Assembly (NCBI GenBank): GCA_963575645.1
Contig: OY754475.1
Span: 16,964,509 to 17,028,508 of the forward strand
Source of the DNA: Xanthostigma xanthostigma
Taxonomy: Eukaryota > Arthropoda > Insecta > Raphidioptera > Raphidiidae
Reading direction: 5' to 3'
Length of the DNA: 64,000 nucleotides
The translations under genes were made by a program, and so were the position numbers. Shown in pieces: positions 16,976 through 36,922 of the stretch (positions are counted from its first letter, which is position 1; each line of letters opens with the position of its first letter). The notes beneath the pieces are model-generated. The model searched no databases. It saw nothing but the letters and a program-made list of their open reading frames with translations, and was not told the origin of the DNA.

Positions 16976-18579
16976 ATGAAGCCTTTTAAAAAACTAGGAG
17001 AAGACTTAAGTAAACTCTGCAGAATATGTTTAACGCCAAATTTGAAAATGACTGGCATATTTCATTTCCCCCCCAAATTGGGAAGAGAAATAGCTGATTT
17101 AATAATGCAATGTGCCCCCGTTCAGGTACAGAGATAAAATGATATGTATGAAAACACTATTTCTTTTTTTTTTGCATTTTTGAAATATTTTATGAATGTT
17201 ATGTGAATTTATTATAGATAAAGAGATACGATAATATGCCAACTTCGATCTGTCGATTATGTTACATTCAACTGAAAAAATTTCATAAGTTTCAAATACA
17301 AATCGTAAAATCTGACAAATCACTGCGATGCTATCAAAAGCAGCAAAATTTATCTGATCAGCCGATCAAACTAGAAAATTCGGCTGAAGAAGAAATGTCT
17401 GACAACCCCGTAAGCCAAACCTTTTCATCTGATGTCATCGTGAAATGTAAATCTTCAGAAGTTAGTTATACATTTGACGAGGCTTACAAATTAGAAAAGG
17501 TCTTTATTAAAGAAGAACCAACTGATGATACCTCATTGAATCAAATCGAATATACTGACGATGTAATTAACAGTTATTCTAATATTGATTGCAAGGAAAG
17601 CAGTAGAGAAGAAAGAAAGTTCGAAATTGGTGACACTAAAGTTGATCAAAACGTCGGATATCCTTGTCTTACAAACGATATAAAAATTTCTGAATGTTCC
17701 GATAAATGCGACATTGAAAAAAATAAAAAACTATATCAATGTCACGCTTGCGAAATGTGTTTTAGAAAATCCAAAATACTAAATGAGCATACATTAATAC
17801 ATACAGGAGAGAAACCGCATCGGTGTGACATTTGTAACAAGTATTATAGAAAATTAGGTCATTTAAAGAGACATAAGTTAAATCATACTGGAGACAAACC
17901 ATATCAGTGTGACGTTTGTAAAATGTGTTTCAAAGAGTCTGGTACCTTAAAGAATCATGCATTAATTCATGCAGGAGAGAAACCATATCAGTGCGATATT
18001 TGTAAAATATATTTCAGGCAGTCAAGTACTTTAAAAAGACATTATTTAACTCATACGAAAGAGAGACCTCACAGATGTGAAGTTTGTAATAGTTGTTTCA
18101 GGCAACCAGCTGCTTTAAACAGACATAAATTAATACATACGGGAGAGAAACCTCACCAGTGCAATATTTGTGAAATGCGTTTCAGTGAATTCAGTGCTTT
18201 AAAGAAACACACGTACATCCATGAAGGAGTGAAACCCTATCAGTGTGACGTTTGTAAAATGTGGTTCAGACAGTCAGATAATTTAAAGAAGCATAAATTA
18301 ACACATACAGGAGAGAAACCGCACCAATGTGATATTTGTAAAATGTGTTTCAGACAACCGGGTACTTTAAATAGACATAAATTAACACATACCGGAGTGA
18401 AACCATACCAGTGTGACGTTTGTAAATTGTTTTTCAGACAATTAGATACGCTGAATAGACATAAATTAACGCATACAGGAGAGAAACCGCACCGGTGTGA
18501 CGTTTGTGAAATGTGTTTCAGACAGTCAAAACATTTAAAAAGTCATAAATTAAAACATACAGTAGAGACGCTGTTCTAG
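16976..18579 (+). CDS. Gene E: ZAD C2H2 zinc-finger protein, 10 fingers
   Basis: Exons 16976-17125 (50 codons, CRIC, donor GTACAG) and 17218-18579 (acceptor TTATAG, CRLC) give about 503 residues; the intron is only 92 bases. Linker with IKEEP. Ten complete C2H2 fingers run from about residue 225 to the end, with mostly TGEKP-type linkers, and the array closes with TVETLF. It is the clear tandem paralog of D (same exon 1 layout, same MPTSICRLCYIQLKKFHKFQ start of exon 2) but has four more fingers and no lesion. It is presumably a nuclear DNA-binding regulator. Confidence 0.92.
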
Positions 18580-18732: not shown

Positions 18733-19084
18733 TTTATGCACAGTACAAAATATCAGTATAAAAATAAAAATAGCAATCTATTATATAATAATAAAAAAAT
18801 AAATTTCGCCGCTTAACAACAATGGATGCAAAGTATATTTACGTACCAGTCACGTGCATAAAAACTGCACCGTTTATATGAATGTGACGTCATTGTAAAT
18901 TATTTTGTAACCGTACTGTAACTATTATTAATTATTATGTGATGTTGCATAAATTTCTTTCTTCTCTATAACGTTTAGAAGCGTAGGACACTCACTTTAT
19001 CAACATTTTATTTAATTCGTCGAATGCCTCACGCCTCTCAACATTACAGAAGAGAATGAAATTTATTTTCTACGATTTACAATA

Positions 19085-19410
19085 ACGTCAGATAGCTTAT
19101 CGTATCCCACTCTTCAAATTCTTTATTTGATACTCATATCAAGAGGGTTGTAATGAAGAAGGTAATCCGCCATATTGGGTTTAAAATGACGGCACAGATC
19201 TTATCATATCTCTCTCTTCAAATTTATTAGTTGGTATCCATATCAACAGAGTTGTAAGAAAAATGTAATCCGCCATAGTGGGTTTAAAATGAGGTCACAG
19301 ACATTATTGTACTCTTCAAATTCTTTATTTGATACCCGTATCAACAAGGTTGTAAAGAAAAAGGTAGTCCGCCATATTGGGTTAAAATGACGTCACATAC
19401 TTTATCGTAT
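19085..19410. repeat. Tandem repeat, three units of about 105 bp
   Basis: Each unit contains CTTCAAATT, TTGATAC..., ATCAA.AGGGTTGTAA, a CGCCATATTGGG word and AAAATGACGTCACA, with slow divergence. A fourth unit is partial. A reverse-strand piece of the same unit occurs at about 29690-29780 inside the intron of the second ZAD unit. Confidence 0.6.
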
Positions 19411-19723
19411 CCCACTCGTCACTCTCATTTGATCCTACGCCATTAAATCCTAATGGGCATTACGCGTTTTTTATCTCTTTTCAATAAAATGATTTCCTAA
19501 ATACCTTGTATGCTACGTCCTTGTCTTACTTTACCTTCCCGATCACAGCGCTGCGTATCCTTAACTAAAATGTTTATTTCGACTCCAAACGATCAATAGT
19601 CAAATCACACTTCACAGTGTAGTTACACCAGAGATAAGGTTACGCTGACTGCAGGCGGGCTTGACACACAAATAATCTGATAGATATCGAATCTTTGTTG
19701 TCAGTTTATCAGAATCTCGAAAA

Positions 19724-20785
19724 ATGCAACATTCTACAGCAACCGGCCAAAGTATACGCGAAATGTGTCGATTGTGTCTAGCATGTGGTGCAACGATAAA
19801 CATATTTAAGATTTCACGCAAATTTGGGAAAGAAATAGCAGACGTAATAACAAAATGTGCCCCCATTCAGGTAAGAAGAACAAGCTTCATTTATTTGTTA
19901 TATTTTCCAGCGGAATAAGTAATTTCACATTTTTTGCCAGTTTGTCTTACTTGCTCAAAGAGTTTTTAAAACTAAAATAATATCACAATTATAAAATTAT
20001 GATTATACAAGTAAAATAACACAAAATATAGAATTTACCGTTAAGAATGCGCCTTGTCCGTTTTTTAATTGCAATGTCTCTTTCCTGGAAGTATTAAAGT
20101 CTAAAATCTATCATTAAGTCATTCCTGCTATGTTTTGAAAAATAAAAATTATGAAAAATACCGAAAGCACACATATTTTCATTCAGAAAAAAGTGTGCAT
20201 GTAATAATATAATAAAAACTGTTTCTCCAATCCCTATTAGATATACTAAATAGTAAATATTATTTTTACTATATGAGTGAAACTTTTAATATGTGATTTT
20301 AATCACAGATAACGAGAAGCGATAAAATGCCAACTTCAATATGTAAATCATGTTTCACTGAACTAGAGAAGGTTCACCAGTTCCAAACGCGAGCCGTAGA
20401 ATCTGACAAAACACTGCAAAGCTATTTGCAAAAACACCAGCTTGAATCTGCTTCTGATGAACTGTCTGATGGTCCTTCAAATCAGAGCTCAGCTACGGAA
20501 ATCACTATAAAATGTGAAATTCCAGAAATTGACGACGTAGATGATGTAGGTTTCCATTGGCCAGAGACGGAACCATCAAATTATAACGAAACAAATAAAG
20601 TTAAGGAGGAAATCAAATCCGATATCAAAGATGAACCGATGGATGATAATTTAACAACAGAATATATGGATGACATAACAGACGTTAATGCCAGTGAAAA
20701 CAGTTGTGAGGACACAGGGATCAAAAATGCCGATCCTGAAGGAATTCCTGATTGTGATTATTCTATGTATAATGAAGGTATGTAA
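19724..20785 (+). CDS. ZAD module F1 (no fingers), first copy
   Basis: Exons 19724-19870 (49 codons, CRLC, donor GTAAGA) and 20309 onward (acceptor AATCACAG, MPTSICKSC) form a complete four-cysteine ZAD, followed by an acidic linker with IKCE and IKDEP. The frame stops at GM* (20785), but AAG|GTATGT at 20777/20778 is a strong donor in phase 1 and is kept in the second copy, so the exon probably ends at 20777 and joins something downstream. No zinc fingers follow; the next coding sequence is the recombinase-like exon at 22530. It could be a ZAD-only protein, a decayed zinc-finger gene, or the 5' part of a fusion. Confidence 0.75.
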
Positions 20786-20834
20786 AGTTGTGGATGCTCA
20801 AGTAAATGTGAGACTAAGAAGTCTTCCATAACAA

Positions 20835-21780
20835 AAATAAGTTCAAAAACTAAAACCCGACTACTGAAAAGTATGAAACTAGAAAATATTCTTATCTAAG
20901 GGTAGCTGTGGTCATATGCCACCTATCCTAACAAAACTTTACATTTTAACAGTAGTAAGCGATCGTAAGCTCTAGGGCAAAGTGCATGACGCTATACATC
21001 TAGAGGGGCCCAGTCGCGTTGGAACGAATTTTTTCATGAGTGGGCTCACGAAAAACAAGTTTAGACATAGTAACATGAAATAGTATGATGTTTATTTTTT
21101 ACCCACGACGGAACGGAGCATGTATATGCGTTTAGGGTGAGAGATTGTTTGCTCGTTTGTATGTGTATTTGTGCACTCGATCAATGTCGCCATTTATCTG
21201 AAAAATGGTTTGATCAATTCAGATGCGGTTTTCTGTAAAGGGTTTATAATTCATCTGAGACGGTTCTTAGATAGATATTACGATGGTGACGCCCCAGGGG
21301 GCGCTGCACTGCACAAAAAAATGAATTGTACAGCAACGTATGCTGGGTTGCCTACACAGCGGGCATTTAATCAGCTTTCTCTGTAACAGTGTCAATTTCT
21401 GTACATAATACATAGGTACTAATAGTTACACTGTGTACGCTAGTTCAGACCATCTGAACTCACTTATACAAAATCTCTAAAACTTTTAAAATAAAACAAA
21501 ATTAAAAATTTACCGAAAACTCGTTTTTTGTCTTCATTTCTTGAAACGAACTCACGCATCAATTAATCATTAGGTTGCGCTCATATGCTGCCGCACTTAT
21601 CTCTCTTTCAAATATGAAAGTTGATATAGAAATCATAAAAGTTAATATATATAAATTTTGATGGGTGGGCTTTAGCTATATATGAGATGGCATATGACCA
21701 CGGCTATCCTCAGATGAGAATATTTTCTTGTTTCATACTTTTCAGTAGTCGGGTTTTAGTTTTTGAACTTATTTTTTATT
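20835..21780. mobile_element. TIR element in F1 unit
   Basis: About 85-base inverted ends (AAAAACTAAAACCCGACTAC at the left, its complement at about 21735-21765). It lies inside the putative intron between the ZAD and recombinase exons of unit 1. The open frame at 21171-21386 does not look like a gene. The element is not seen at this place in unit 2. Confidence 0.55.
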
Positions 21781-22529
21781 TAAGTAAATTATTTTTATTA
21801 ATTTTTTTTTTCAATTTGCTCCCCTCTGGGACCAAAATTCAAAAATAAGTGTAGCTTATGTTACCCGTGCCACAATAACGATTCGATTGACACAATTTAT
21901 TTATTAAAATTGGATGAATAGTTTAGACGCTACGATGGAACATCCGTAAATACAAACATACATACATAGACTGCTAAACTCATAACCCTTCCTTTTGACT
22001 TCGCCGTAGTGGGGTAAAAAAAATATTATAAAAGTGCTATTTCTAAAGAGTTCGTTGAAAGAGAAAACAGCTTAAACCTATAGTAGATTGTGTATCAAAG
22101 GCGAAATGAAGACGATTTTGACGGATGTGAAGTTCACACGAGTCATTCCTTCCTTTAAACACACTGTAGTTTTTTTTCTACACGCTATAAAATGCCGACT
22201 TTAGCGAGTAGGTCTTAGTTTTCAGTATTTGCAACATTTCATCACTCATTTTTTAGGCGCGACCCAAGCTTTAGCTGGAAGCGCCTATATGTACTCGCTT
22301 TGTCTGTGAATCTGTGAGTCACGCTTTTTGTATCCAGCGTACAGCCCAAACGCCTTAACCGATTTTTAAAAACTTTTTTTTGTTCAATTCGTCTCCGGGT
22401 AACTTAATTCCTAACGTCGTTTATGCGGCCCGCGGGCTACCGACCCCTGCTTTCAAGTAATGTTTGTAGCGGTCACAGCTACATTATTGAAGTTTCAATG
22501 TATGTCAAATAGTAGCGAAAACTAAAAAA
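21780..22529. other. Region between F1 ZAD and recombinase exon
   Basis: About 21970-22020 holds a CATAACCCTTCC...CGCCGTAGTGGGGTAAAA tail typical of insect transposons. 22080-22255 is the stretch that matches both sides of the Helitron at 30803-31468 in unit 2. An AG at 22510-22511 precedes an open frame into the recombinase ATG. Confidence 0.4.
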
Positions 22530-23729
22530 ATGAGTGCTGAAAATAAAAAGTTTTTAGAAGACTTCACGCCTCCGGAAATTCACGAAACCGAAGAAAATGT
22601 CAACAGAGACACGTTACCCATTAAATCTAAAGAAAGATACGAAATTGTTTATGCAACCTACAATAAATGGAAGAGTACCAACAAAATTAAACGAACGTCA
22701 GAGAGTGTTTTAAAAGCATATTTCACATTAATGTCGAAGAAATATAAACCACCAACTCTGTGGACCAATTACTCAATGTTAAAGAGCACAATCAGACAAA
22801 AAGAAAACATTTACATCGAGGAATACAAATCTTTGGTACCTTTATTAAAGAGTCAATCCGATGGTTACAAGGGGAAGAAAACTAAAGTTTTATCGGCACA
22901 GGAAATAGAAAAGTTTCTAAATGAAGCCCCAGACGATAAATATTTAGCAACTAAGGTAATTTATTTCCAATTTACTACAATTTTCGATATTCATCAATAC
23001 AAAATATAAACAACAAAAAGCCGGTATAGGCTGTGTGCACGAAGCCTACTAGCGCCGCTAGTGGGTAATAGAGAATTATTGAACTCACTTTTTATGGAAA
23101 TCGCGACATGCTTCTAAGGTGATAAGTCAAAACCTTTAGTGGGGCCATGGTGTGTCAAAAAAAAGACGGGTTGCACTCCGGGAGTGCCGGCAGAAGTGAA
23201 AACTTGAATATTACCTCTACTCTCCATCCGTCTTACGAATTTTCGGTCAGGTCACGTGTCCTGACGCGAGTTTAACATTTTTTACCCATTACAAAAAAAG
23301 TGTACAACGCCGCTAAAGAAGTTTTCACTTCAAAAATGTAATAAGGAAAACTGATGTTAATTTGTCTACACTGACGGCGGAACGTCAAATTAGGGCGCCA
23401 ATGACCTTTATTTTACTTAAATCACCATCAGCGCAACAGCCCGGAACACAACAAGCATTTCCAGATCGCTTAGTTTTCCTATGTTTTCTTTGTAATTAAA
23501 AAACTTCATAAATTTATAACTATTTTCACTTTTAATAAACATTGCTCACTGACATACGGAAAATTTGAGCTTGAAGTTTCCCCTAGTGCTCACCATAAAC
23601 GCTCGCTACGAAAAATTTGTAACTCCGCCTCCCTGCACATAGCCCATACCTACAAAAATTAATTACAAATAGTGGAGTGGATTGGGAATTTCAATCCGGT
23701 GTGTCACGAATCGAAAAATGGTTCCTACA

Positions 23730-24100
23730 AAAATCTCCCCCGACATTTTGATATAGTTTAAAATACAGCTAATTTGGTTGATATGGTAGCTACAGAAATC
23801 ATCAATGCATTACAGAAAATCGTTACATAAAATCCAACATAGCAGGCCAACAAAATGAAGATGATTTGACCCTAAACATTTCCACAAAATCGCAAAAGTG
23901 TGCAAATGTGAGGGAACATATTTTATGTAAGTATGATATACGATATATTCTGTCAAAATTGCACCTTCGTGCGATGGCTGGCAGGAGGTTCGTATACATT
24001 TTATGTGGAACGATTTTCTATATTGCATTAATGATTTCCACAACTACCATGTCAACAAAATAAAATTTGGTGAGATTTTGCCGGACCCCCACCTATTATT
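23730..24100. mobile_element. Foldback MITE in recombinase intron
   Basis: About 100-base imperfect inverted arms (GAAATCATCAATGCATTACA against its complement near 24030). The overlapping short frames on both strands are by-products. Confidence 0.5.
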
Positions 24101-24102
24101 GA

Positions 24103-24360
24103 CTTTTTTGGATCAACTTTCCCGATTTGTTAATCATAAAAATCGAGCCTAAGATGAGAGAATATGACACAATGAATTGGAATACACCATTGATTCTATA
24201 CATAAATATAGATCATCCACATAAACATACCTTGTAAATAATTGTGTTTTGTGTACTTTGAGTTTATTTGTTTTGTTAACATTTTATTTGTCATATTATC
24301 TCATCTTAGGCTCGATTTTTATGATTAACAAATCGGGGAAGTTGATCCAAAAAAGTTAAT
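24103..24360. mobile_element. Foldback MITE
   Basis: Inverted arms of about 70 bases (TTTTTTGGATCAACTT...AGCCTAAGATGAGA and complement ending at about 24358) around a 110-base centre. Adjacent to the previous element. Confidence 0.55.
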
Positions 24361-24429
24361 TAGAATTTATTTAATTTAACAGCATCGGTTCGCGATTTAG
24401 CTAGGCAACCCATGTGCGATTTATCAATG

Positions 24430-24990
24430 TATACGCTAGAAAAGTATCTTTGACATGCGATCTTTGCGCCTTCTCGTGTTTGATTTTTTAAAATCTGGTT
24501 CACTCAAAACTTACAAACCCATGCAAACCAGTGTTATTCTTAATTATAGAAAAATATTATGCACAATGTCAGTAAAAAAACTACATAAATGATATACATT
24601 TTTTATTTCAAAATTTTTTAAAACTTATTTTTGTTAACAAAATAACAATTATGATATTTTTCATGTATTTAATAATGATTACAGACGTAAAATAAAATTT
24701 AATTACCCTTGACGACGTACTGCTGCAGTTCATTTTTTTCCTCTCTAATTCATAAGAAAATCCAGGAAAACAGTGGAATTGTAATTCTGGATGTTTAGTT
24801 GGTGTATTTTTACAATCAGCAACATAGCACTTCCGATTTGATAGCTTTTTATCTATTTTATTCAACAATTAATCCTTATTAAAATGCACGTATAACATAT
24901 GACACTAAGGTTTTGGCTGAACCAGAATTAAATTAAAAAACACGAGAGGGCGCAAATGTTGCTTTTCAAAAGATACTTCCCTAGCGTATA
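24430..24990 (-). mobile_element. THAP-bearing TIR element (P-element-like remnant)
   Basis: The inverted ends begin TATACGCTAG and extend about 54 bases (through TTTGCGCC and CTCGTGTTT). On the minus strand at about 24700-24868 the interior encodes a THAP zinc-finger start: CYVADC, KHPELQFHCFPGF, then a splice donor AGG|GTAATT. THAP domains head P-element transposases, so a shortened P-like element is the simplest reading. No clear 8-bp target duplication was found, and no other transposase exon is present. Confidence 0.6.
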
Positions 24991-25609
24991 TAACATTATC
25001 TAACATATTATAATCTTTCTCATCATCAAATAACAGATGAGGCTATATATTTTAATACGGGATCTCGCACTATCTCGTCCTCTAAGAATCTGGTGAATGA
25101 TCTAAATTTTCATATCCTGATAAAAAAAAATTACAAAACAAAAATTAAAAAAACAAATCTCACAGGTTGCTCTAATCTTCGGCGTAACTGGAGCTTGCCG
25201 CAGAGAAGAATTGACCAAAGTAAAAGTTAAGGATGTTGAGGTTCAAGGAGATATTTTACTAATTAAAATCCCAGATTCGAAGACACAAGTTTCTCGTTCT
25301 ATTGCTATAGAAGGTAAATTTTGCGATCTAGTAAAGAAATACGCGTCCCTGCGGCCACCAAATATGCCTTCAGATCGATTTTTCATAAATTATCAGAATG
25401 GGAAATGTACGACGCAATTTATCGGAATAAATAAGTTTGGCGGAATGCCAAAACAAATTGCAACATACCTTGGACTACCCGAACCCTCGCTGTATACTGG
25501 ACATTTCCGCAGAACTTCTCGATTACTTGTCAATTCTGGAGGTAAAGTTAAGACCAAACTCATGTCAAGTTTGCCCCAAAACGTGTCAAGATTGGTTATG
25601 GGCGAGTAG

Positions 25610-26025
25610 TGTGGCCACTTCAGCATCGGCAATGATCGTGCCGACCAGGTTCCAATTGGAGTGAAAGGAGCCTCCTTGCTTGGCGATCTTCCAATTCGCC
25701 GGGAGATACATTGGTTGAGGATATTTGATTAAAATCCGCGAAATAACTTATATATACATAATAACACAAAAGTATTTTATTTTAATATGCATAATATTTT
25801 GAGAATACGTATTTTAAATGCTTTCTATATTTTGTATTTTTTTTTTTTTGTATTTGAAGTAGAAAACAAGAAATTGTTTTCTTTTTTAAACCGTTTTTAT
25901 TTATATAAGTTCACGTTTCGTATATTTGTTTGTTTGTTTCAAATCTTGCTACCGATTTTACACCCACTTCCTGTTATCCGATTTAGTTGAAATTTTGCAC
26001 ACATGTGTATTATTCATAGATATAT
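25610..26025. other. Downstream of recombinase copy 1
   Basis: No gene. 25545-25740 has no match in unit 2 and is more GC-rich; it may be a fragment of another element that replaced the end of the gene. Confidence 0.3.
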
Positions 26026-26745
26026 ATGTCACCGGGATATTGTCAAACCCGTGATATTATTTCACTTAGTGAAATTACAATATCACGACTCTTTGTCAAT
26101 CGTGATATTGTAATTTCACTAGTGAAATTGTAATATCACGGATTTGACAATATCCCGGTGACATATATATTTAATAGATTGCGGATACACTAGCGCCTCC
26201 TGTACCTTTTAGAAGCGCGCGAGATTCAAAAATATTAATTATTTTATAATATGATTTTATTGAGAAAAACGACAAAACTCACAGTAAACAGTGATATTTT
26301 GCTCCAAAACCTATTTTTATACTGAAACGTTTCAAAAATTACAAAATTGAGCATAAATATAATGTAAAAGCTTAGAACATTTTACATTGTCAATTTGGCA
26401 TCAAGGTTGACAAGCATTGATGCCAATCTGACAATGTAAAATGTTTTAAGCTTTTATATTATATTTATGCTCAGTTTTGTAATTTTTTAAACGTTTCAAT
26501 ATAAAAATAGATTTTGGAGCGAAATATCACTGTTTACTGCGAGTTTTATTGTTTTTCCATTAACATCATATTATAGAATATTTAATCTTTTTGAATCCCG
26601 CGCGCTTTTTACGGCGTTTTCCACGTACAAAATGGCTTCCATATGGCTTCTAATTGGAACTATTCCGCACAACGCGCAAGGATAGGCATCCGCTATCTAT
26701 TAATATATATATATATCTATGGTATTATTATAATATTATGGTAAC
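26025..26745. mobile_element. Large palindromic MITE with a nested MITE
   Basis: A foldback of about 560 bases centred near 26410, with arms covering TTTTGCTCCAAAAC...GAGCATAAATATAAT. The ends are TTTAATAGATTGCGG and CCGCTATCTATTAA next to TA runs. A second palindrome (GTCACCGGGATATTGTCAAA and complement, 26030-26163) sits in one TA-rich end. A near-full copy lies in reverse at 32672-33258 and half a copy at 55737-55920. Confidence 0.65.
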
Positions 26746-27690
26746 TCGCTGATGGGCCCGGCATGCGTCTGGGTGTAAATCGCACTTTTAATGAAGCGCA
26801 CTAAAAAGTTAACATTAAAATAGGTAAAAAATTGGTTTTGTTGTAGGTATTTAAGGAGGTGTAGTAAAAGCTCGAAAATAATTATGCGTCAACAATCTGA
26901 AGCTTTGATAAGACTAACATAAAAGCGTAGAGCGTATTTAGCATAGAGATATAAGTAACTAGAGTTCGCTAGTTCGTATGCTTGCCATAAGTGAAAGTGT
27001 CCTCAGTTGAGAGAGAGAACGCTGCAGAAAACCCAGAAAACCAGATATTTATTTATTAAAATCAGCATTGTTTTGTATCATTAGTTACCATGAAGATAAG
27101 GAACTATTCTCTCTCTCTGAATTGCAGACACTTTCACGGCTCACTCGCGTACTCTATTTTGTTGGGACGTGGAAATAATGTCTGGCTTTCGATCGCCTTC
27201 TTCGACTTTAATTTTGCTAAATGCGCCCCACGATTTTATTTTAGTCAGTAGTCGAATTATTGCTTCAGATAGGTGAATCTTAATTAATTTTTAGCTTTTA
27301 GTGCATCATGGGCTATAAAAAAAACGTTCAAGTTAAAAAAGTTTTTTTACGTATTGTATTTTTATGTATTTAAATAAAATACTTTTAAAACTTACTTCTT
27401 TTGTACATCTTTCTGTGTGTATATATGTACATACTGTTTTGATATAGAAAGATAAATTAATTTGTTCTTTGCTTTGTAATTAACAAACTCTTCAGGTTTG
27501 AAGGCTTTCTTCAGGCATTTACCAGCTTACTCCCTAAGTCAAGCGAGCCTAAAGAAGTTTTACTTCAAAAATAACTGACCAGACAAGCAGTGAATTACTA
27601 TTGTCTAGTTTTACCGCACTAGTTAGTAATGGGTCCCTTTACGTGCCTGTATAAATTAATGTAAAGAATCTATTTTATAGAGGGTAGTGC
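26746..27690. other. No gene seen
   Basis: AT-rich intergenic DNA. GAAGTTTTACTTC near 27550 resembles a word in other repeats here. No ORF of note. Confidence 0.35.
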
Positions 27691-28105
27691 AATAGTATAT
27701 TGTGCAAATAGTGCGGCAAGTTGTCGAATGCCCATGAGGGGGCAATCGACAATGCCGCACGAGTTGCACATACTATTTTTTATTACGAATAAATTAAAAT
27801 TCCCAGAACAAATGTTCAATTTTAAAATACACATTTTTTGCTGTCACATTCAGTATTGGTAACTATGGTAACTCTGAATTTGCGTGCGGCAAACAATAAT
27901 TTCAGTGCGACAATTGTATATTGTGCAACTAGTGCGACAATGCCGCACGAGTTGCACATACTATTTTTTATTACGAATAAATTAAAATTCCCAGAACAAT
28001 TAATGTTCAATTTTAAAATAGACATTTTTGCTGTCACATTCAGTATTGGTAACTATGGTAACTCTGAATTTGCGTGCGGCAAACAATAATTTCAGTGCGA
28101 CAAAT
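27690..28105. repeat. Tandem duplication, about 187 bp unit
   Basis: Two copies of a unit running from ATGCCGCACGAGTTGCACAT to AATAATTTCAGTGCGACA, offset by about 188 bases and nearly identical. The short frames on both strands come from this repeat. Confidence 0.7.
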
Positions 28106-28198
28106 AAAGTTTGCGCACGCAAATGAAAATAGCCACTTTTCAACCGTAACAGCATGCGTAAAGATACCACTTTTCCCGCATGAGTAATAAAAAATTAT

Positions 28199-28314
28199 TT
28201 TTCAGACTGTTAGATACTATAAATAGACACAAATGAACAGGAGACAAACCGTACCAGTGTGAGATTTGTGTTTAATACTGTCAAAACATTTAAAAACTAA
28301 TAAATAAAAACATA
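28199..28314 (+). pseudogene. Relic of a terminal zinc-finger exon
   Basis: With stops, it reads FRLLDTINRHK*TGDKPYQCEICV*..., then QNI*KL and a lysine-rich end. It matches the last two fingers of gene E (FFRQLDTLNRHKLTHTGEKP, CDVC...QSKHLK). It has several stops and indels and is cut by a hAT-type insertion at 28323. It shows that a finger array once lay between the two ZAD-recombinase units. Confidence 0.7.
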
Positions 28315-28322
28315 CCTACATA

Positions 28323-28709
28323 CAGGGGCGCCGGGTTTTTAAAATTCCCGTGGGTGCTCCAGCTTTTTTTTATGTTTGTTCACTCAGAACTCTGTTATTT
28401 ATGAACCGATTTGAAAATTCTTTTTTTGTTTGTAAGGATACACTTCCAGATTGGTCCCATTTTTTTCAAAATCCATTTCCGGTGATGGGATCCTTGAGGA
28501 GTTGAGAAAACTCCTCAAATATTATAGGCATACATATAGCGCGTATTACGTAGGTACTTATATTATTTAGGTATATTATTTAGATCGCGTTTGTTAAAAG
28601 ATGATAATGAGAATTATTTTAGATATTCATAGTCGTGGGTGCTCGGCACCCACTATTTACCTTTCGTGGGTGCTGGAGCACCCGAGCACCCACGGAGTCG
28701 GCGCCCCTG
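28323..28709. mobile_element. hAT-type MITE with 8-bp target duplication
   Basis: The ends CAGGGGCGCCG / CGGCGCCCCTG are flanked by CCTACATA on both sides (28315-28322 and 28710-28717). It is internally GC-rich with GTGGGTGCTC words in both orientations. The 8-bp duplication and CAGGG ends are typical of hAT. No transposase. Confidence 0.8.
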
Positions 28710-29109
28710 CCTACATAGGTATATGTATTTTGAACACTAACTTTTATAAGTTTAATATTTTTATAGTAACCACAGTCCACACACACAACACAAGATTCGG
28801 ATTTTTAATTACTCATAATGTTAACGATTAGCAGAGACAATGGTTTATAGGCAAAACTTACATTGTAGGCTAATTTGTATTTTACATCTATTTTGCTTAG
28901 ACCACTAAATGATATTTCGTTTTTCTGCACATTACCATATTACATACAAATCTTATGCTCAATTTTCAATACTTTTCATTTCTTTGACTTTCTGATCCCA
29001 GCGCCGCATACTATGAACTAAAATGTAAGCGATCCAACCCACCAATTATAATCAATAATCTTCATGTAGGAATCGAATTCTGGTTGTCAGTTTTGCAAAG
29101 TCTTGAAAA

Positions 29110-30622
29110 ATGAAACATTTTACAGCAAGCGGACAAAGTATACGTGAAATGTGTCGATTGTGTCTAGCATGTGGTGCGACGATGAACATATTTAAGATTT
29201 CCGCCAAATTTGGGGAAGAAATAGCAGACGTAATAACGAAATGTGCCCCCATTCAGGTAAATATAAAACTAGTTTATTGTATTTAGCAATAGAATAAGTA
29301 AATCTACCATGTTGTGTGCGTTTGCCTTATTTGCTTAAAGAGTTTTGAAAAATAAAAATAATATTGATTGAACTCCTTTTTTGAACCTCCGTATAACTTC
29401 CTACAATTTATCTGTGTCCGACTTTCATTGAATCAAAGGAGTATAGGATAGAGCACTAGACAGAGCCTAACAAAATTTGAGACGAGTTTTGATTTACTTC
29501 CCGTGGACATATACAGAATTTACTTTTGACAATGTTGACTTTTTAATAAGATTTTAATTAATTTTATGTTTGTCAGTTTGGGTATCTTGCAATTATAATT
29601 TCCACTAGATCAAATTAATCTAGAGCTTTGAAATTTTGTACACGTGTGTAAGTCCGTTGACTACGAAATATAATATTATCTAATATCATTCTAAATTCAA
29701 TATGGCGGGCCTGCAAGATGGCGGACTACCCTCTTGACATGGGTATCGAATGAAAGAGTTTGACGATAAGATATTTGACTTCACTGTAAAAACAAATATG
29801 ACGAAAGTCACATATATTACTTTATTAATAGATTGATTTGATAATGGCAAAACTGAAACGTCGCTTACACATTGGAATCCAATAAATGGTGTTTTTGGAT
29901 CGTAAAGTTATTTCATCATGTGTTATGTCTAATGGTTAATTTTTAATTTCTTAAATATTAAAAAAACAATATGACACTTACGACAGTGGTTCTCAATCCG
30001 TGTTCCGCGAAACCCTGAAGCCGCCTAAGGAAGTTTTCACTTACATACTAAAAAACAAATTGTCCAGCTTTAATATTATACGAAATTCTACTTTTACTAT
30101 ATGAGAGAAATTTTTCATATGTGATTTTTGTCACAGATAACGAGAGACGATAAAATGCCAACTTCAATCTGTAAATCATGTTTCACTGAACTAGAGAAGG
30201 TTCACCAGTTCCAAACGCGAGTCGTAGAATCTGACAGGACACTACAAAACTATCTGCAAAAACACCAGCTTGAATCTGCTACAGAAGAACTGTCTGATGA
30301 TCCTTCAAGTCAGAACTCAACTACCGACATCACTATTAAATGTGAATTTGCAGATATTGAAGACGTAGTTGACGACGCTTTCTATTGGTCAGAGACGGAA
30401 CCAGCAAATTGTAACAAAACAAATAAAATTAACGAAGGAACGTCAATCAGTTCTGCAATAAAAGATGAACCAATGGATGATAATTCATCAATTCCAACAA
30501 CAGAATATATGGATGACATTACAGACGTTAATGTCAATGAAAACAGTTGTGAAGACACTGAGGTTGTTCCTGATTGTGAATATTCTCTTAGCAATGAAGG
30601 TATGAAAAATTCTGGATATTAG
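29110..30622 (+). CDS. ZAD module F2 (no fingers), second copy
   Basis: Exons 29110-29256 (49 codons, CRLC, donor GTAAAT) and 30137 onward (acceptor GTCACAG, CKSC). The linker has IKCE and IKDEP. It is close to F1 along its full length. The open frame ends GMKNSGY* at 30622, but the donor AAG|GTATGA at 30599/30600 is at the same place and phase (1) as in F1. The stop codons just inside the intron differ between copies, which supports the splice reading. No fingers follow. The 880-base intron holds dispersed repeat pieces. Confidence 0.75.
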
Positions 30623-30802
30623 GCTGACATGTCTTCCAAAGGTGATAAATGGGATAAAAGTGATATGTCTAGAGTTCAAAAAAAAGAAACTTAAAAGAAT
30701 AGTTGACTGTGTATCCACGACGGAATGAAGACGATTTTGACGAATAAGTTCACACGACTCAAAATCGCATTCCACCTTTTAAGCACGCTGTATTTTTTGT
30801 CA

Positions 30803-31468
30803 TCCATACTAATATTATAAATACGAAAGCAACTATGTCTGTCTGTCTGTCTGTTACGCTTTTACGGCCAAACCGCTTGGTCGATTGTGATGAAATTTAA
30901 TAGGGAGATAATTTAAACTCTGGGGAAGCACATAATTTACTTGTTTTTTTTTTCAAAAATTGGACCCTAAGGGGGTTAAATAAATTACGGTTAAAAACGG
31001 ATGTTCCAGTACTTTTAATACGAAATCTTGATGCGCCCAAATTGTGTAATGGTACACGTTTACAAGTTTCTCATCTGGGTAGAAATGTTATTAGGGCTAT
31101 TATAATTAGTGGCAAATCTAAAGGAGACAGCGTTTTAATACCAATTATACCAACGTATTTGCCTTTTCAATTTAAAAGATTACAATTACTATTGAAAACT
31201 GATTTCCGAATAACTATAAACAAAGTCCAGGGGCAAACACTTGAGGTAGCTGGCATTCATTTAGAAAAACCATGTTTTTCGCAAGGCCAGCTGTATGTGG
31301 CTTGCTTACGTGTATCGAATCCACAAAATCTATTGTTTTTACAAAAGTTGGTAACACAAAAAACATTGTTTATATGACCGTCGTAAATTATAGTCGCTTG
31401 AATTTATGAACTTTTTAATCAATTATACACATTGATTCCACGCGAACGAAGTTGCGATTATAAGCTAG
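30803..31468 (+). mobile_element. Helitron carrying a helicase remnant
   Basis: TCCATACTAATATTATAAAT start, 3' hairpin region CGCGAACGAAGTTGCG, and AAGCTAG end, between A and T. Removing it rejoins sequence that matches 22180-22200 of unit 1 (CTGTA.TTTTTT...TACACGCTATAAAATG), so unit 1 is a natural empty site. The insertion came after the unit duplication. Confidence 0.85.
30961..31377 (+). pseudogene. Helitron helicase C-terminal fragment
   Basis: An open frame reads VPVLLIRNLDAPKLCNGTRL, then FRITINKVQGQTLEVAGIHL and LYVACLRVS, which match the last motifs of the Pif1-type helicase of Helitron RepHel proteins. The Rep nuclease and the N-terminal helicase motifs are absent, so this is an internally deleted element that cannot act by itself. 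Confidence 0.85.
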
Positions 31469-32585
31469 TACACTCTATAAAATGTTACTTAGCGAGGGAT
31501 CTTATAGTTTTCAGTATTTTCAAAATTCCAGCACTCATTTTAGAATTGTTCGCGACAATTGGGATTTGTGAAATTGTCATATGACATACGGTGGCAGAGA
31601 ATTTTATCCAATTAAGGGACAAATGTTTTTGCTAACTGTATAAGTTCGTTGTGAAATTGTTTTTTTTTACAAAGTGCTTTTGACATGAATAATTGAGCCT
31701 CCAATAATGAGAAGACCGCTGCAAACACGCTCTGTGTTCAAGTACGCCACTGTATTTATTTATGTTTTTTGTTTGTTGTAATGAAGCTTACAGATATGTT
31801 TCAACAGTTGACTGAATTGGTTGACGTGTCACTCTGTTGTTTCGGAAGATCGTGAACTTGGATCCCAGATCAAGAATATCATATATATTAATACGCTAAG
31901 GTTAAAGATGTTTGCCTCCCTTTTTAGAAAAAACCTCACAATTTCTCCACATAAATTATATATCATTTTACAGATAATTGCTTGCTCTACTGACATCGAC
32001 AACTAAAAAATTTATTATTGCTTTTGTTTTTGTAAATAATTAAAATACAGCAACGCTGAACAACGTCTGCCATCTGAATTTTGAAACAACGTCAACACTT
32101 TGATCTGTCATCTGACCTTCATATTGTAATAGGTACAACAGACACAATACTGCATACTGCCATCTGACGGCTTTTATTTTGAAACAGCGAGCAACGCTGA
32201 ACAACGTCACAGCAATGCTGCATGATGCCATCTGACGGCTTAGCTCAACGCTTTTGCTACTTGCGTTTCTATATGACAATTTTAGTAAAATATTTCTTCG
32301 ATCTGTCATCTGAGCTTCATATTGTAATACAACAAAAAGAAGAACGTTATAAGCAGTGTGCAAAATTAAAAACGAATTGAATACCTGCAATCATATTTAA
32401 AAAAATTATTTTGTAAAGTGATAATTATTATACTTATTTAGTGCGAATAATTCGCACAGGTCACTCTAGTAAAATAATTAAATCCGTTAACATAATTTAA
32501 GTTTTCGCCCGATCACGGCTTAAATAATATTATGTTTGTAGCAGCCAAAGTCTCATTATGGAAGTTTCAGTTTATGTTAAATAAG
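31469..32585. other. No gene seen; internal direct repeats
   Basis: 31470-31550 continues homology to unit 1. A pair of direct repeats (GATCTGTCATCTGA.CTTCAT) about 200 bases apart lies at 32096 and 32299. The minus-strand open frame here follows those repeats and resembles no protein I know. Confidence 0.35.
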
Positions 32586-33340
32586 GTATGTTCCAAGCAG
32601 CCAGCAAATGGTAACGAAACCGCCACCCGCATGCGCAGTAGCTAAGACGAAACTGTATTGGTTTTGGACATAGTTATATATATTAATAGATAGCGGATGC
32701 CTATCCTTGAGCATTGTGCGGAATGGTTCCAATTAGAAGCCATATGGAAGCCATTTTGTACGTGAAAAACGCCGTAAAAAGCGCGCGGGAATCAAAAAGA
32801 TTAAGTATTCTATAATATGATGTTGATGGAAAAACAATAAAACTCGCAATAAACAGTGATATTTCGCTCCAAAACCTATTTTTATATTGAAACGTTTAAA
32901 AAATTACAAAACTGAGCATAAATATAATATAAAAGCTTAGAACATTTTACATTGTCAGATTGGCATCAATGCTTGTCAACTTTGATGCCAAATTGACAAT
33001 GTAAAATGTTCTAAGCTTTTACATTATATTTATGCTCAATTTTGTAATATTTGAAACGTTTCAGTATAAAAATAGGTTTTGGAGCGAAATATCACTGTTT
33101 ACTGTGAGTTTTGTCGTTTTTCTCAATAAAATCATATAAAATAATTAACATTTTTGAATCTCGCGCGCTTTTTACGGCGTTTTCCACGTACAAAATGGCT
33201 TCTAAAAGGTACAGGAGGCGCTAGTGTATCCGCAATCTATTAAATATATATATCTATGGTTTTGGAACACATTTTAGCTATCTGCGCATGACGGTGACAG
33301 TTTTGTTACCGTTTACTGGCTGCTTGGAACATATCTATAG
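32586..33340. mobile_element. TIR element with the large palindromic MITE nested inside
   Basis: The outer ends GTATGTTCCAAGCAGCCAG and its near complement (33300-33335) bound a short element. The palindromic MITE described at 26025 is inserted in its middle (32672-33258), in reverse. The whole nest lies just before the recombinase start of unit 2 and is absent from unit 1. Confidence 0.65.
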
Positions 33341-33357
33341 TCGCGAAAAATTCAAAA

Positions 33358-35210
33358 ATGAGTACTGAAAATGAAGAGTTTCTAGTAGATGAAATTGCCA
33401 ATGACATAAACTGCACGCCCACGCCCCAGGAAATTAACGGAACTGAAGAAAATTCCAACAGAGCAATGTCTGTTAAATCCAAGGAAATATACGAAATTGT
33501 TTATGCAACCTACAATAAATGGAAAAATGCAAATAAAATCAAACAAACGTCGGAGCATGTTTTAAAAATATATTTCAAAATCATGTCGAAGAAATTTAAA
33601 CCCCCAACTCTTTGGTCCAAGTACTCAATGCTAAAGAGCACCATCAGACAAAAAGAAAACATTTACATCGAGGAATACAAATCTCTGATACTTTTTTTAA
33701 AGAGTCAATCCAAAGGTTACAAGGGGAAAGAATCTAAAGTTTTGTCGGCAGAGGAAATAGAAAAATTTCTAAAAGAAGCGCCAGACAATAAATATTTAGC
33801 GACTAAGGTAATTTATATTCAGTTAATTATAATTTCCGATATAAATCAATACAAAATATAAATAACAATTAACTGGATATAACTATAAAAATTAAAAATC
33901 AGATTAAACATTGCAAAAAATATAAAATTAAAAAATATGGATTGAAACTGAATTAGAATCAGTTCAGGTTTCGGTTTTGTCAATAACCGTTTGAACTGTG
34001 TTTATGAAATTTAGAGGTCTGTTAATCTAAAGCAGAGGTCCCCAAACTTTTTTGTCTCATAGACCACTTACCATGTTTTTCGGTTTTGGGTAGACCCCCT
34101 GCTTATCTGATATTGATTTTTTGCAAATTCATTAATTTCAAATGTATTTTTGACAACCAGTATAGTGCTTGAACGATTTAAATTTATAACGGTAATGAAA
34201 TGTAGTGTGAAATGTTTAGTTTTATACATTTATTAATTAGATTCAAATTAAACGAATCAAATTAAAATTTACTATCTGTTACATAAAATAACTAAGCAAA
34301 AAATAAATGCTTTTAGTGTGAGGGATGAATCTGATGCTTTAATAATAAATTTTCAACATTTGGCATCAATTTAGTTAGATTTAATCTTAAATCTCTTGGG
34401 TTAACGATGTCCAGTTTGTTTCTTTTTTTGTTAGGAGATTCACTATCGTTGACCCCCATTTTCATTTCATGGACCCCCAATTTTTTTTCCCGCTGACATG
34501 GACCCCTTGCAAGTTGTCGTCGACCCCTGGGGGTCGATATAGACCACTTTGATCTAAAGGGTTTAAATATTATATAAACCAAATTTCATGTGTTTATGTT
34601 AAATATATTTTGAGTTATTAATGGGTCAAAAATGGTTCCAAATGATTCGTGTAATATAACACACGACTGTTGCTTCCTTTTTCTTTGCTTGACACGCTGT
34701 CTAGATCTTGTGAATGAACTAAATAAAAAAATTTTATATCCTGATAATTTTTTTCTATAAAACAAAAATGATTAAAATAAAAAAAATCTTCAGGTTGCTC
34801 TAATTTTCGGTGTAAGTGGGGCCTGTCGCAGGGATGAATTGTATAACATACATATGAATAATGTGGAGACACAAGGAGACATTCTTCTAATCAAAGTTCC
34901 GGACGCGAAGACCAAAATTTCTCGGTCTTTTACCATAGAAGGTAAATTTTGCGAAATTGTAAAGCAGTACGCGGCTCTACGACCACCGAATGTTCCTTCA
35001 GAGAAATTTTTTATAAATTACCAGAATGGAAAATGTACGAGGCAAGTAATCGGAATAAATAAGTTTGGTGGAATGCCAAAACAAATTGCAATGTACCTTG
35101 GACTGCCCGACCCCTCGCTTTATACTGGGCATAGCTTCCGCAGAACTTCTGCGCTTCTTGTAAATGCTGGAGCTAATGTCATGACACTTCAACGCCATGG
35201 TATCTGCTAA
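33358..35210 (+). CDS. Crypton-type tyrosine recombinase-like protein, copy 2
   Basis: Exons 33358-33807 and 34794-35210 (AAG|GTAATT, TCTTCAG|GTTGCT, phase 0) give 288 residues. The N-terminal part has KSKEIYEIVYATYNKWK and PPTLWSKYSMLKSTIRQKEN. The catalytic part has GACRRDEL (Arg I), KTKISR, TGHSFRRTSA (HxxR) and LQRHG (second His). It stops at HGIC*, before the segment that would carry the nucleophilic tyrosine. The frame is otherwise open and similar to copy 1 across both exons. Known insect relatives are Crypton-derived. It may be a domesticated DNA-binding protein without strand-cleaving ability, or an early pseudogene. A hAT remnant sits in its intron. Confidence 0.75.
34033..34551 (-). 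mobile_element. hAT remnant with 8-bp target duplication
   Basis: The ends CAGAGGTCCCC and GGTCGATATAGACCACTTTG are flanked by ATCTAAAG on both sides (34025-34032, 34552-34559). On the minus strand (about 34313-34400) the frame ends with a hAT transposase C-terminus: NPRDLRLNLTKLMPN, LLLKHQIHPSH*. The rest of the transposase is deleted. Confidence 0.85.
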
Positions 35211-35440
35211 ATTAGTAAATGATATGTTGAAAAATTAATTTCAACTAGAAGGAAAATTGGATGAAATAATATGATGTCAGAAGTATCATTGAATTTATCA
35301 ATTCAAATTGAAGAAATGGAAATGTCTGACTCGGAGGAGTAAATGTAAAACCAAGAGAAATAAAATTGTCGACCAATTTTTTTCTGACTATATATTGACA
35401 AAAAATAATATAAAAATATAAATCAATATAACAAAAGATG

Positions 35441-35471
35441 ACGTTTCGATCCGGATTTGGATCTTCTTCAG
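35441..35471 (-). ncRNA. Hammerhead-ribozyme-like core (minus strand)
   Basis: The minus strand reads CTGAAGA, stem II GATCC/GGATC with AAATCC, then GAAAC. A second copy with the same core lies at 49910-49940 (minus). Stems I and III are not resolved. Confidence 0.5.
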
Positions 35472-35547
35472 AAATATCTAAAAAAAATATAAAAATTAAT
35501 TAGTATTAGCTACTTATTTTCTAATAGAACGCAAGATTGAACGATTC

Positions 35548-35754
35548 GGAACCCAAAGGAATGGTGAGACCTCTGGTGAAAAATGCGCCGAACTGTCTTA
35601 AGGGGGGTTTTTGACAGGTAAACTAGGTCTAGCCTCTATCATGCGTTTCTAAATCAATTTTTACCTTATACCTCTATAGTTTACCTGTCAAAAAACCCCC
35701 TTATGGCAGTTCGGCGCATTTTTCACCAGAGGTCTCACCATTCCTTTGGGTTCC
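35548..35754. mobile_element. Foldback MITE inside the Penelope element
   Basis: Inverted arms of about 78 bases start GGAACCCAAAGGAATGGTGA, and the complement ends TTTGGGTTCC. The spacer is about 50 bases. Target duplication unclear. Confidence 0.7.
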
Positions 35755-36334
35755 AAACAGTTTAAAAGATTGAAAATTAATGAAAAATTAATAACAAACA
35801 AATTTTTTTTTAATACGTAGTCATGGATATCTAAGTACCTATAAAGAAAAAAATTATTTACAAAGACAAAATATTATTTCAAAATAATATCATAAATATT
35901 ACTTAAATATTCCGTATCTAATTGAGAATTAAGAGAATTTTTATTAGATTTTATATAATAACATTTCCGAAATACTTCTTTTAAAATAATTAGTTTTATT
36001 ATCTAAAATTTTAACACTATCTCAATTAATTTTATGGTCGTATTCAATATTATGCTTAGTTACGACATTATGCTTATCAGGGAGTAATTTATGATTGCTT
36101 TGGTGTTCTTTTATTGGTCGACAATTTTATTTATTTGAAGAGTTCTATTCAGACGTTAATCAAAGATTTTAAAACCAAGAGAGTTTATTGTCTCGACTTC
36201 GCAGGAAGTAACGTCGAATGCAATGTTTGTATTTATTGTAATAAATAAAATTTTTTAAGTATTAAAAATAAACAGTTTTTATTGTTCCTTAAAATTAAAT
36301 CGATATACATTTATGTTAACACTTCTTTTACCGA

Positions 36335-36600
36335 GCGGGGTGGCGTAGCGGTGAGAGCACTAGACTCGCATTCGGGAGGTACCGGGTTCGAATCCCGGCG
36401 GGAGCAGATGTGACTAGGACTTTTTCCTACTACCTCTCGCTGAGAAACGGTAATTCCTGTACCGACCATCTTGTTGAGGTTTTCAATGGTTTCCCTCAAT
36501 AATTTCAGATAAATATCGAGATGGTTTCTTATCTTCAATGATCCGGCTTCAGCAAAAGATCTGTGGGAGTCATCTTACTCCTTTTTAACCCGACGGCTCA
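36335..36600 (+). repeat. tRNA-Ala-like SINE
   Basis: The head at 36335-36406 has an A-box TGGCGTAGCGG, B-box GGTTCGAATCC, T-stem CCGGG/CCCGG and an anticodon-loop CTCGCAT (CGC, Ala). The tail is unrelated to tRNA. The acceptor stem is imperfect. A retroposon, not a working tRNA. Confidence 0.6.
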
Positions 36601-36922
36601 ACAGATCAGCAACGTCATTCGTTTTGCGGGTCCACGTACAAAAAATTGATTTTAAAGATATCGCAATAATTCTTTCAGAATTTTCAAAGTTATTCTTACT
36701 ATAATGATTTGCCACTATCACTAAATTAGTATTTTCGTTAAAACTGATTAAAGTAATACACGAAATATGTCAAGGGCTCTTTGTGTTGTTTTTTAATGGT
36801 TTTACTAATTTATTTTGTTGCTTACATTTGATGAATTACTTAATATTTCTCAAAATATGCAAAATAAATACTTTAAAACCCACAAAAGTTACTTATAAGT
36901 CACTACCACGTATGTATTAATG
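36600..36922. repeat. Repeat shared with GPCR intron
   Basis: TCCACGTACAAAA, GATTTTAAAGATATCGCAA and TATGTCAAGGGC recur in order at 57870-58310. It lies in the 3' flank of gene G. Class unknown. Confidence 0.45.

Follow-up and report, generated by a model that had tools for sequence, protein, structure and literature searches.

A recombinase gene of transposon origin that comes to lie directly behind a host regulatory gene may be joined to that gene, kept on its own or simply left to decay, and the locus described here raises the question of which fate applies. The locus lies in a 64,000-nucleotide stretch of the raphidiid insect Xanthostigma xanthostigma (C12:16964509-17028508; hereafter the window), whose genome comprises 623 Mb in 28 contigs. 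ZAD-C2H2 genes are an arthropod zinc-finger family with a ZAD domain, and many of them surround the window. Two segments of the window, which we term units 1 and 2, lie on the same strand, and each consists of ZAD exon 1, ZAD exon 2 and a two-exon gene for a tyrosine recombinase. An initial annotation of this DNA proposed that ZAD and recombinase might be spliced together into one fusion protein. Our main positive finding is a different one: judged from substitution patterns, the recombinase protein of unit 2 seems to have been kept by selection after its cutting residue was lost. The explanation that we favour, and to which we give about an even chance, is that the recombinase is a Crypton relic kept next to a fingerless ZAD gene for a protein that no longer cuts and whose translation probably begins at its own ATG.

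Results

The duplication of the unit, as claimed in the initial annotation, is borne out by the exons and by Pfam and exceeds chance, and a third unit can now be added. On the plus strand, unit 1 comprises ZAD exon 1 with the first Cys pair (19724-19870), ZAD exon 2 with an acidic linker (20309-20777), recombinase exon 1 counted from its own ATG (22530-22955, followed by an intron that begins GTAATT) and recombinase exon 2 (25166-25609). The corresponding parts of unit 2, also on the plus strand, are located at 29110-29256, 30137-30599, 33358-33807 and 34794-35210. Unit 3, which was fetched and read, is a third ZAD-linked recombinase copy on the minus strand at C12:16540007-16547298. It was overlooked by the earlier reader, who also missed two features described below, namely the transposon beside the proposed acceptor of unit 2 and the fact that the recombinase has lost its Tyr region. 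In addition to the translations, the joined ZAD exons matched the Pfam zf-AD profile (E=3.1e-16 in unit 1 and E=8.6e-16 in unit 2) and the joined recombinase exons matched Phage_integrase (E=2.9e-7 and E=1.3e-9), in all cases above the curated cut-offs. The DUF3504 profile of Pfam gave no match to the units at E<=1, and a sequence search of solved structures returned no recombinase, its single match (E=0.96) being a chance one.

When the unit 2 recombinase was used as the query in one search of the whole genome (24 candidates scored), 17 matching rows were obtained at 10 places. Three of these places are units 1, 2 and 3, with 73-99% identity to the query, versus 30-49% at the other seven, for each of which the 9.9 kb of surrounding sequence that was fetched showed no ZAD. 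The unit-type lineage was thus found in this search in the three units only, all of them in the ZAD cluster on C12, and dispersed mobile copies of it were not found. On these sequence relationships the unit recombinase is classed as Crypton-like, and the related repeated elements of the same genome are taken by us to be CryptonI.

None of the three units holds the full R-H-R-Y catalytic set, where we assume the catalytic residues to be those of the family. The unit 2 recombinase retains its R and HSFRR boxes, but its frame ends in RHGIC followed by a stop, and the Tyr region comes behind in-frame stops. Unit 3 has the same tail DNA at 94% identity, and its recombinase carries changes of R to G and of H to L. 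The unit 1 recombinase is truncated before the Tyr region, its homology ending near 25546, and one residue is missing in its HxxR box. Apart from matches in place, no copy of a downstream Tyr exon was detected at E<0.01 in the 2-4 kb behind each unit. Because the Tyr region has been lost, the recombinase should no longer cut and rejoin DNA.

Selection on the recombinase was assessed from pairwise ratios of nonsynonymous to synonymous divergence (dN/dS), from polarised changes and with a purpose-written three-taxon maximum-likelihood codon model (12 tests, with uncorrected p values). The pairwise dN/dS was 0.27 (0.19-0.38) between units 1 and 2, 0.34 (0.23-0.48) between units 1 and 3 and 0.57 (0.33-1.07) between units 2 and 3. 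In the codon model, the ratio (w) was 0.29 for unit 1 plus the stem (p=3e-8) and 0.135 for the unit 2 branch (p=0.0085), and the unit 3 branch was neutral (w 0.94, p=0.90). The polarised changes agree with this pattern: 9 synonymous and 7 nonsynonymous changes were counted in unit 2 (binomial test against neutrality, p=0.002), compared with 7 and 26 in unit 3 (Fisher test of unit 2 versus unit 3, p=0.023). Because the Tyr lesion is common to units 2 and 3, constraint acting on unit 2 since the two diverged is not expected to reflect a need to transpose. Purifying selection after the loss of transposition, by which a domesticated Crypton may be recognized, was therefore found on the unit 2 branch.

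The recombinase also has the gene structure of related free elements. A free Crypton family of the same genome (L031 and L033), the copies of which are 96% identical to each other over the matched stretches, has an intron at the same point as the unit recombinases (AAG/GTAAT...AG/GTT, with slashes at the splice points). The start Met of L033 and that of another free family, L029, align with the start Met of the unit recombinases, and the N-termini match onward from this residue. The ATG itself is kept in all three units in the A-rich context AAAATG. In these two free Crypton families, sequence sharing extends 469 and 374 bases upstream of the ATG, and shared upstream sequence therefore need not be coding. 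A free Crypton match to the leader before the unit ATG (TACATTATT) was dropped as short and A+T-rich, and the apparent element boundary turned out to be an insertion in one copy. Long polyprotein frames, presumably retroelement-like, occur near free Crypton copies at positions 1-2676 of L033 and 2907-5093 of L034.

Several observations weigh against a retained recombinase. The signal in unit 2 is based on 16 polarised substitutions and comes from exon 2 (w 0.002, p=0.002) but not from exon 1 (w 0.68, p=0.75), and the whole-frame p value would fail strict correction for 12 tests. The unit 3 frame is open yet neutral, so that an open frame alone proves nothing. The recombinase intron is not general, because the L029 match passes uninterrupted through the intron point. 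The sole promoter-like conserved block upstream of the recombinase, which is common to the three units and located between ZAD and recombinase (22028-22262 on the plus strand in unit 1), lies in a repeat: of its 24 matching rows in the genome, 19 fall outside the units and 5 within them. Finally, units 1 and 2 have diverged more at synonymous sites in the recombinase (0.36-0.65; by exon, 0.37, 0.26-0.55, in exon 1 and 0.63, 0.41-0.93, in exon 2) than in ZAD (0.23, 0.15-0.34), and part of the low w of unit 1 plus the stem may thus date from mobile life. Within the block at 22028-22262, a shared stretch resembling a TATA box and initiator (about 22185-22226 in unit 1) was considered as a private promoter and rejected, as its host block is largely a dispersed repeat relic; most of the outside rows of this repeat cover the part before the TATA. 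The synonymous gradient along the units (19724-25609 and 29110-35210) would be explained either if gene conversion between neighbouring units had acted on their 5' part or by an older split of the recombinase. If the split is older, the w of unit 1 plus the stem may include selection on a mobile element, whereas that of unit 2 would not.

These points lend some weight to a second explanation, namely that the recombinase is a dead Crypton relic that was copied as a passenger when a ZAD segment duplicated, its low dN/dS being left over from active life or an effect of the small sample. It would fit the damage to the catalytic boxes, which taken together affects all three units, the neutral recombinase of unit 3 in a frame that is still open, a recombinase older than its ZAD by synonymous divergence, an interval packed with transposon and repeat relics, and a unit 2 p value that is uncorrected. 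However, w was 0.135 on the unit 2 branch, which postdates the separation from unit 3 and thus also the Tyr lesion that the two have in common. We regard a dead relic as possible but rather unlikely, and a retained non-cutting recombinase in unit 2 as likely but unproven from these sequence data.

The ZAD modules of the units were described in the initial annotation as fingerless, and this holds: their frames contain no C2H2 fingers and end after 160-166 amino acids. In all three units the ZAD exon ends at the same phase-1 donor (GAAG/GTATG) with a stop shortly after, at 20785 in the unspliced frame of unit 1 and at 30622 in unit 2, so that the donor and early stop claimed for the first two units extend to the third. 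Among the best 150 of 1,896 candidates scored with the unit 2 ZAD as the query, five open frames were shorter than 200 amino acids, and these are exon 2 of all three units and exon 1 of two of them. Twelve ZAD matches were read, of which three are the units, and the nine non-unit paralogs all carry fingers in the ZAD exon itself and in the same frame. Short-frame ZADs are not unique to the units: with the Pfam zf-AD profile (1,338 first-look ZAD candidates), 22 of 150 scored matches had frames shorter than 200 amino acids, two of them in the units. Among the 20 further short-frame matches outside the units there may be additional ZAD genes that are fingerless or split. Compared with ZAD-C2H2 genes, the units share a ZAD with two Cys pairs, one splitting intron and an acidic linker, but they differ in having no zinc fingers in their frames. 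The pairwise dN/dS of ZAD was 0.49 (units 1 and 2), 0.50 (units 1 and 3) and 0.30 (units 2 and 3), and w was 0.59 for unit 1 plus the stem (p=0.12), 0.295 for unit 2 (p=0.051) and 0.27 for unit 3 (p=0.027). In unit 3, ZAD thus remains constrained while the recombinase drifts.

A fingerless ZAD exon with a splice donor could in principle be spliced to a distant zinc-finger exon, in which case the recombinase would be merely intronic. A decayed zinc-finger remnant (28192-28315, plus strand), which follows the unit 1 recombinase at a distance of 2.6 kb on the same strand, is in keeping with such splicing, but it holds a stop and amounts to about one and a half fingers. Among the matches listed, blastn with one finger gene as the query found no finger in the unit 2 stretch 29101-36900, the unit 1 remnant being the sole zinc-finger sequence observed behind a recombinase, and the fingers of the nine paralogs lie in the ZAD exon rather than in a distant one. 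We consider splicing to a distant finger exon very improbable. The remnant is similar to the terminal part of the finger gene located at 17218-18579 and may be the remainder of the lost fingers of unit 1.

The fusion proposed in the initial annotation would join the ZAD donor to an acceptor just before the recombinase exon or, in an extended form, within the first 31 bases of that exon, yielding a dimerising ZAD with a non-cutting recombinase fold. The Val codon at the junction and the six-codon open path were read correctly (VAKTKK in unit 1 and VAKNSK in unit 2). The acceptor position in unit 1 was also right (AG at 22511-22512, with a second phase-compatible AG at 22514-22515), but that in unit 2, given as about 33345, was a few bases off, as the AG is located at 33339-33340. 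Before the recombinase ATG there are therefore two phase-1 AGs with an open path in unit 1 and one in unit 2, but none in unit 3, where AA replaces AG and an in-frame TAA lies two codons before the ATG. A phase-1 AG is present at +31 inside the recombinase exon of all three units.

The junction path is no more than chance would be expected to give. When ATGs on both strands of the window were scored, with the first 400 bases left out, 875 of 2,220 (39%) had a phase-1 AG and an open path upstream, as did 110 of 266 (41%) in A-rich contexts. The junctions of units 1 and 2 are homologous and therefore count once. Their paths are identical at 13 of 17 bases, within the range of 61-84% observed for alignable non-coding stretches. 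In unit 2, an inverted-repeat transposon (32584-33336), flanked by an ATA target duplication (32581-32583 and 33337-33339), adjoins the proposed acceptor, and the A of the AG is the final base of this duplication; by alignment, unit 3 carries a shortened copy of the same transposon at the same site. Because the transposon abuts the site in units 2 and 3, these units differ from unit 1 in the sequence immediately before the AG position, where splicing signals could lie. An earlier reservation, that the acceptors are not pyrimidine-rich, carries little weight: pyrimidines make up 50% and 56% at the candidate acceptors, 50-72% at 12 ZAD acceptors (three of them those of the units) and 33-61% at five recombinase-intron acceptors.

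A fusion would be consistent with the phase-1 donor shared by all three units and followed by no finger frame in the ZAD exon, with the phase-compatible paths of units 1 and 2 and the AG at +31, with candidate acceptors no poorer than true ones here, with the apparent constraint on both modules in unit 2 (p=0.051 for ZAD) and with the neutral drift of the unit 3 recombinase that accompanies the loss of its junction. Against this stand the high base rate of such paths, the single homologous site, the lost junction of unit 3, the replacement by the transposon of the context upstream of the site in units 2 and 3, the unremarkable conservation of the path, the conserved ATG of the recombinase and the constraint on the unit 3 ZAD even without the proposed junction. 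The fusion thus received no positive support and appears unlikely to us. The spacing of poly(A) signals does not help in the choice: the nearest AATAAA lies 712, 379 and 382 bases after the ZAD donor in the three units, and such signals between ZAD and recombinase decide nothing because the sequence is so A/T-rich.

Other features of the window include an open reading frame for a helicase-like fragment between ZAD and recombinase of unit 2 (30904-31377, plus strand), which from its motif we take to be Helitron-like. Just upstream of the unit 1 ZAD gene are 3.4 copies of a tandem repeat of about 104 bases (19076-19421), and the interval between units 1 and 2 contains a 190-base repeat in 1.9 copies that match at 97% (27747-28103). 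On the minus strand, two frames (53819-54139 and 58362-58937) appear to resemble exons of a neuropeptide-type G-protein-coupled receptor.

Discussion

In the favoured explanation, retention of a non-cutting Crypton relic, a Crypton-type DNA transposon with one tyrosine-recombinase gene, its own ATG and one intron would have landed behind a ZAD gene. The block of ZAD exon 1, ZAD exon 2 and recombinase would then have been copied within the ZAD array to three places, and the Tyr region was lost, through the same broken tail in units 2 and 3 and through truncation in unit 1. At least in unit 2, the reading frame would still have been kept by purifying selection. As the frame appears to be kept under selection without a Tyr region, the unit 2 recombinase has probably been co-opted as a non-cutting product that binds DNA or protein and starts from its own ATG, while the ZAD exons would separately encode a fingerless ZAD protein. 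We infer that the recombinase is expressed, from a transcript separate from that of ZAD, that it may bind DNA and that it benefits the host.

Should the host make use of the unit 2 recombinase, this would be a fresh co-option of a Crypton, with the neutral sister copy in unit 3 serving as an internal control, and this in the setting of a very large regulator family, given the 1,338 first-look ZAD candidates. If it were joined to ZAD, a DNA-binding part derived from a transposon would have been captured by that family. In particular, a ZAD spliced to a non-cutting Crypton fold, through an acceptor at the edge of the recombinase exon or just within it, would be a new architecture, still active in unit 2 but no longer in unit 3. 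The recombinase core would then bind DNA in place of the zinc fingers that are usual in this large arthropod regulator family; we consider the existence of such a protein quite doubtful. Even if neither reading holds, the locus offers a useful warning, as phase-matched open paths leading to an ATG occur commonly and do not constitute evidence for a fusion gene. No fusion protein of ZAD and a Crypton recombinase was found in the literature searched, a coverage that leaves out most subscription papers. In a study that screened 10 million eukaryotic proteins for domains co-occurring with transposon domains, the main text names neither zf-AD nor Crypton (PMC12062965).

The capture of Crypton recombinases by host genes has precedents (Kojima and Jurka 2011, PMC3212892). 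According to that study, such recombinases have been taken into KCTD1, KIAA1958 and the WOC/ZMYM/QRICH1 group. The units resemble these DUF3504 genes (KCTD1, KIAA1958 and WOC/ZMYM2-4/QRICH1) in having a tyrosine-recombinase core without the full catalytic tetrad, but the DUF3504 genes are conserved in many animals, whereas the units have no DUF3504 match in Pfam. With the insect CryptonI elements of the same study, the units share a recombinase gene without an extra C-terminal domain, although the unit lineage was found only as three ZAD-linked copies and without the Tyr region. The case that appears most like the ZAD-linked units is the Crypton in an intron of ATF7IP, the frame of which is conserved in birds and for which a fusion has been predicted without a supporting mRNA (PMC3212892). 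In both cases, a Crypton frame appears to have been kept by selection inside a host regulatory gene, a fusion has been predicted without mRNA support and some copies are frameshifted. They differ in that the frame in ATF7IP is undamaged in one species and orthologs form the basis of that case, whereas the units described here are three paralogs of one genome that have lost the Tyr region.

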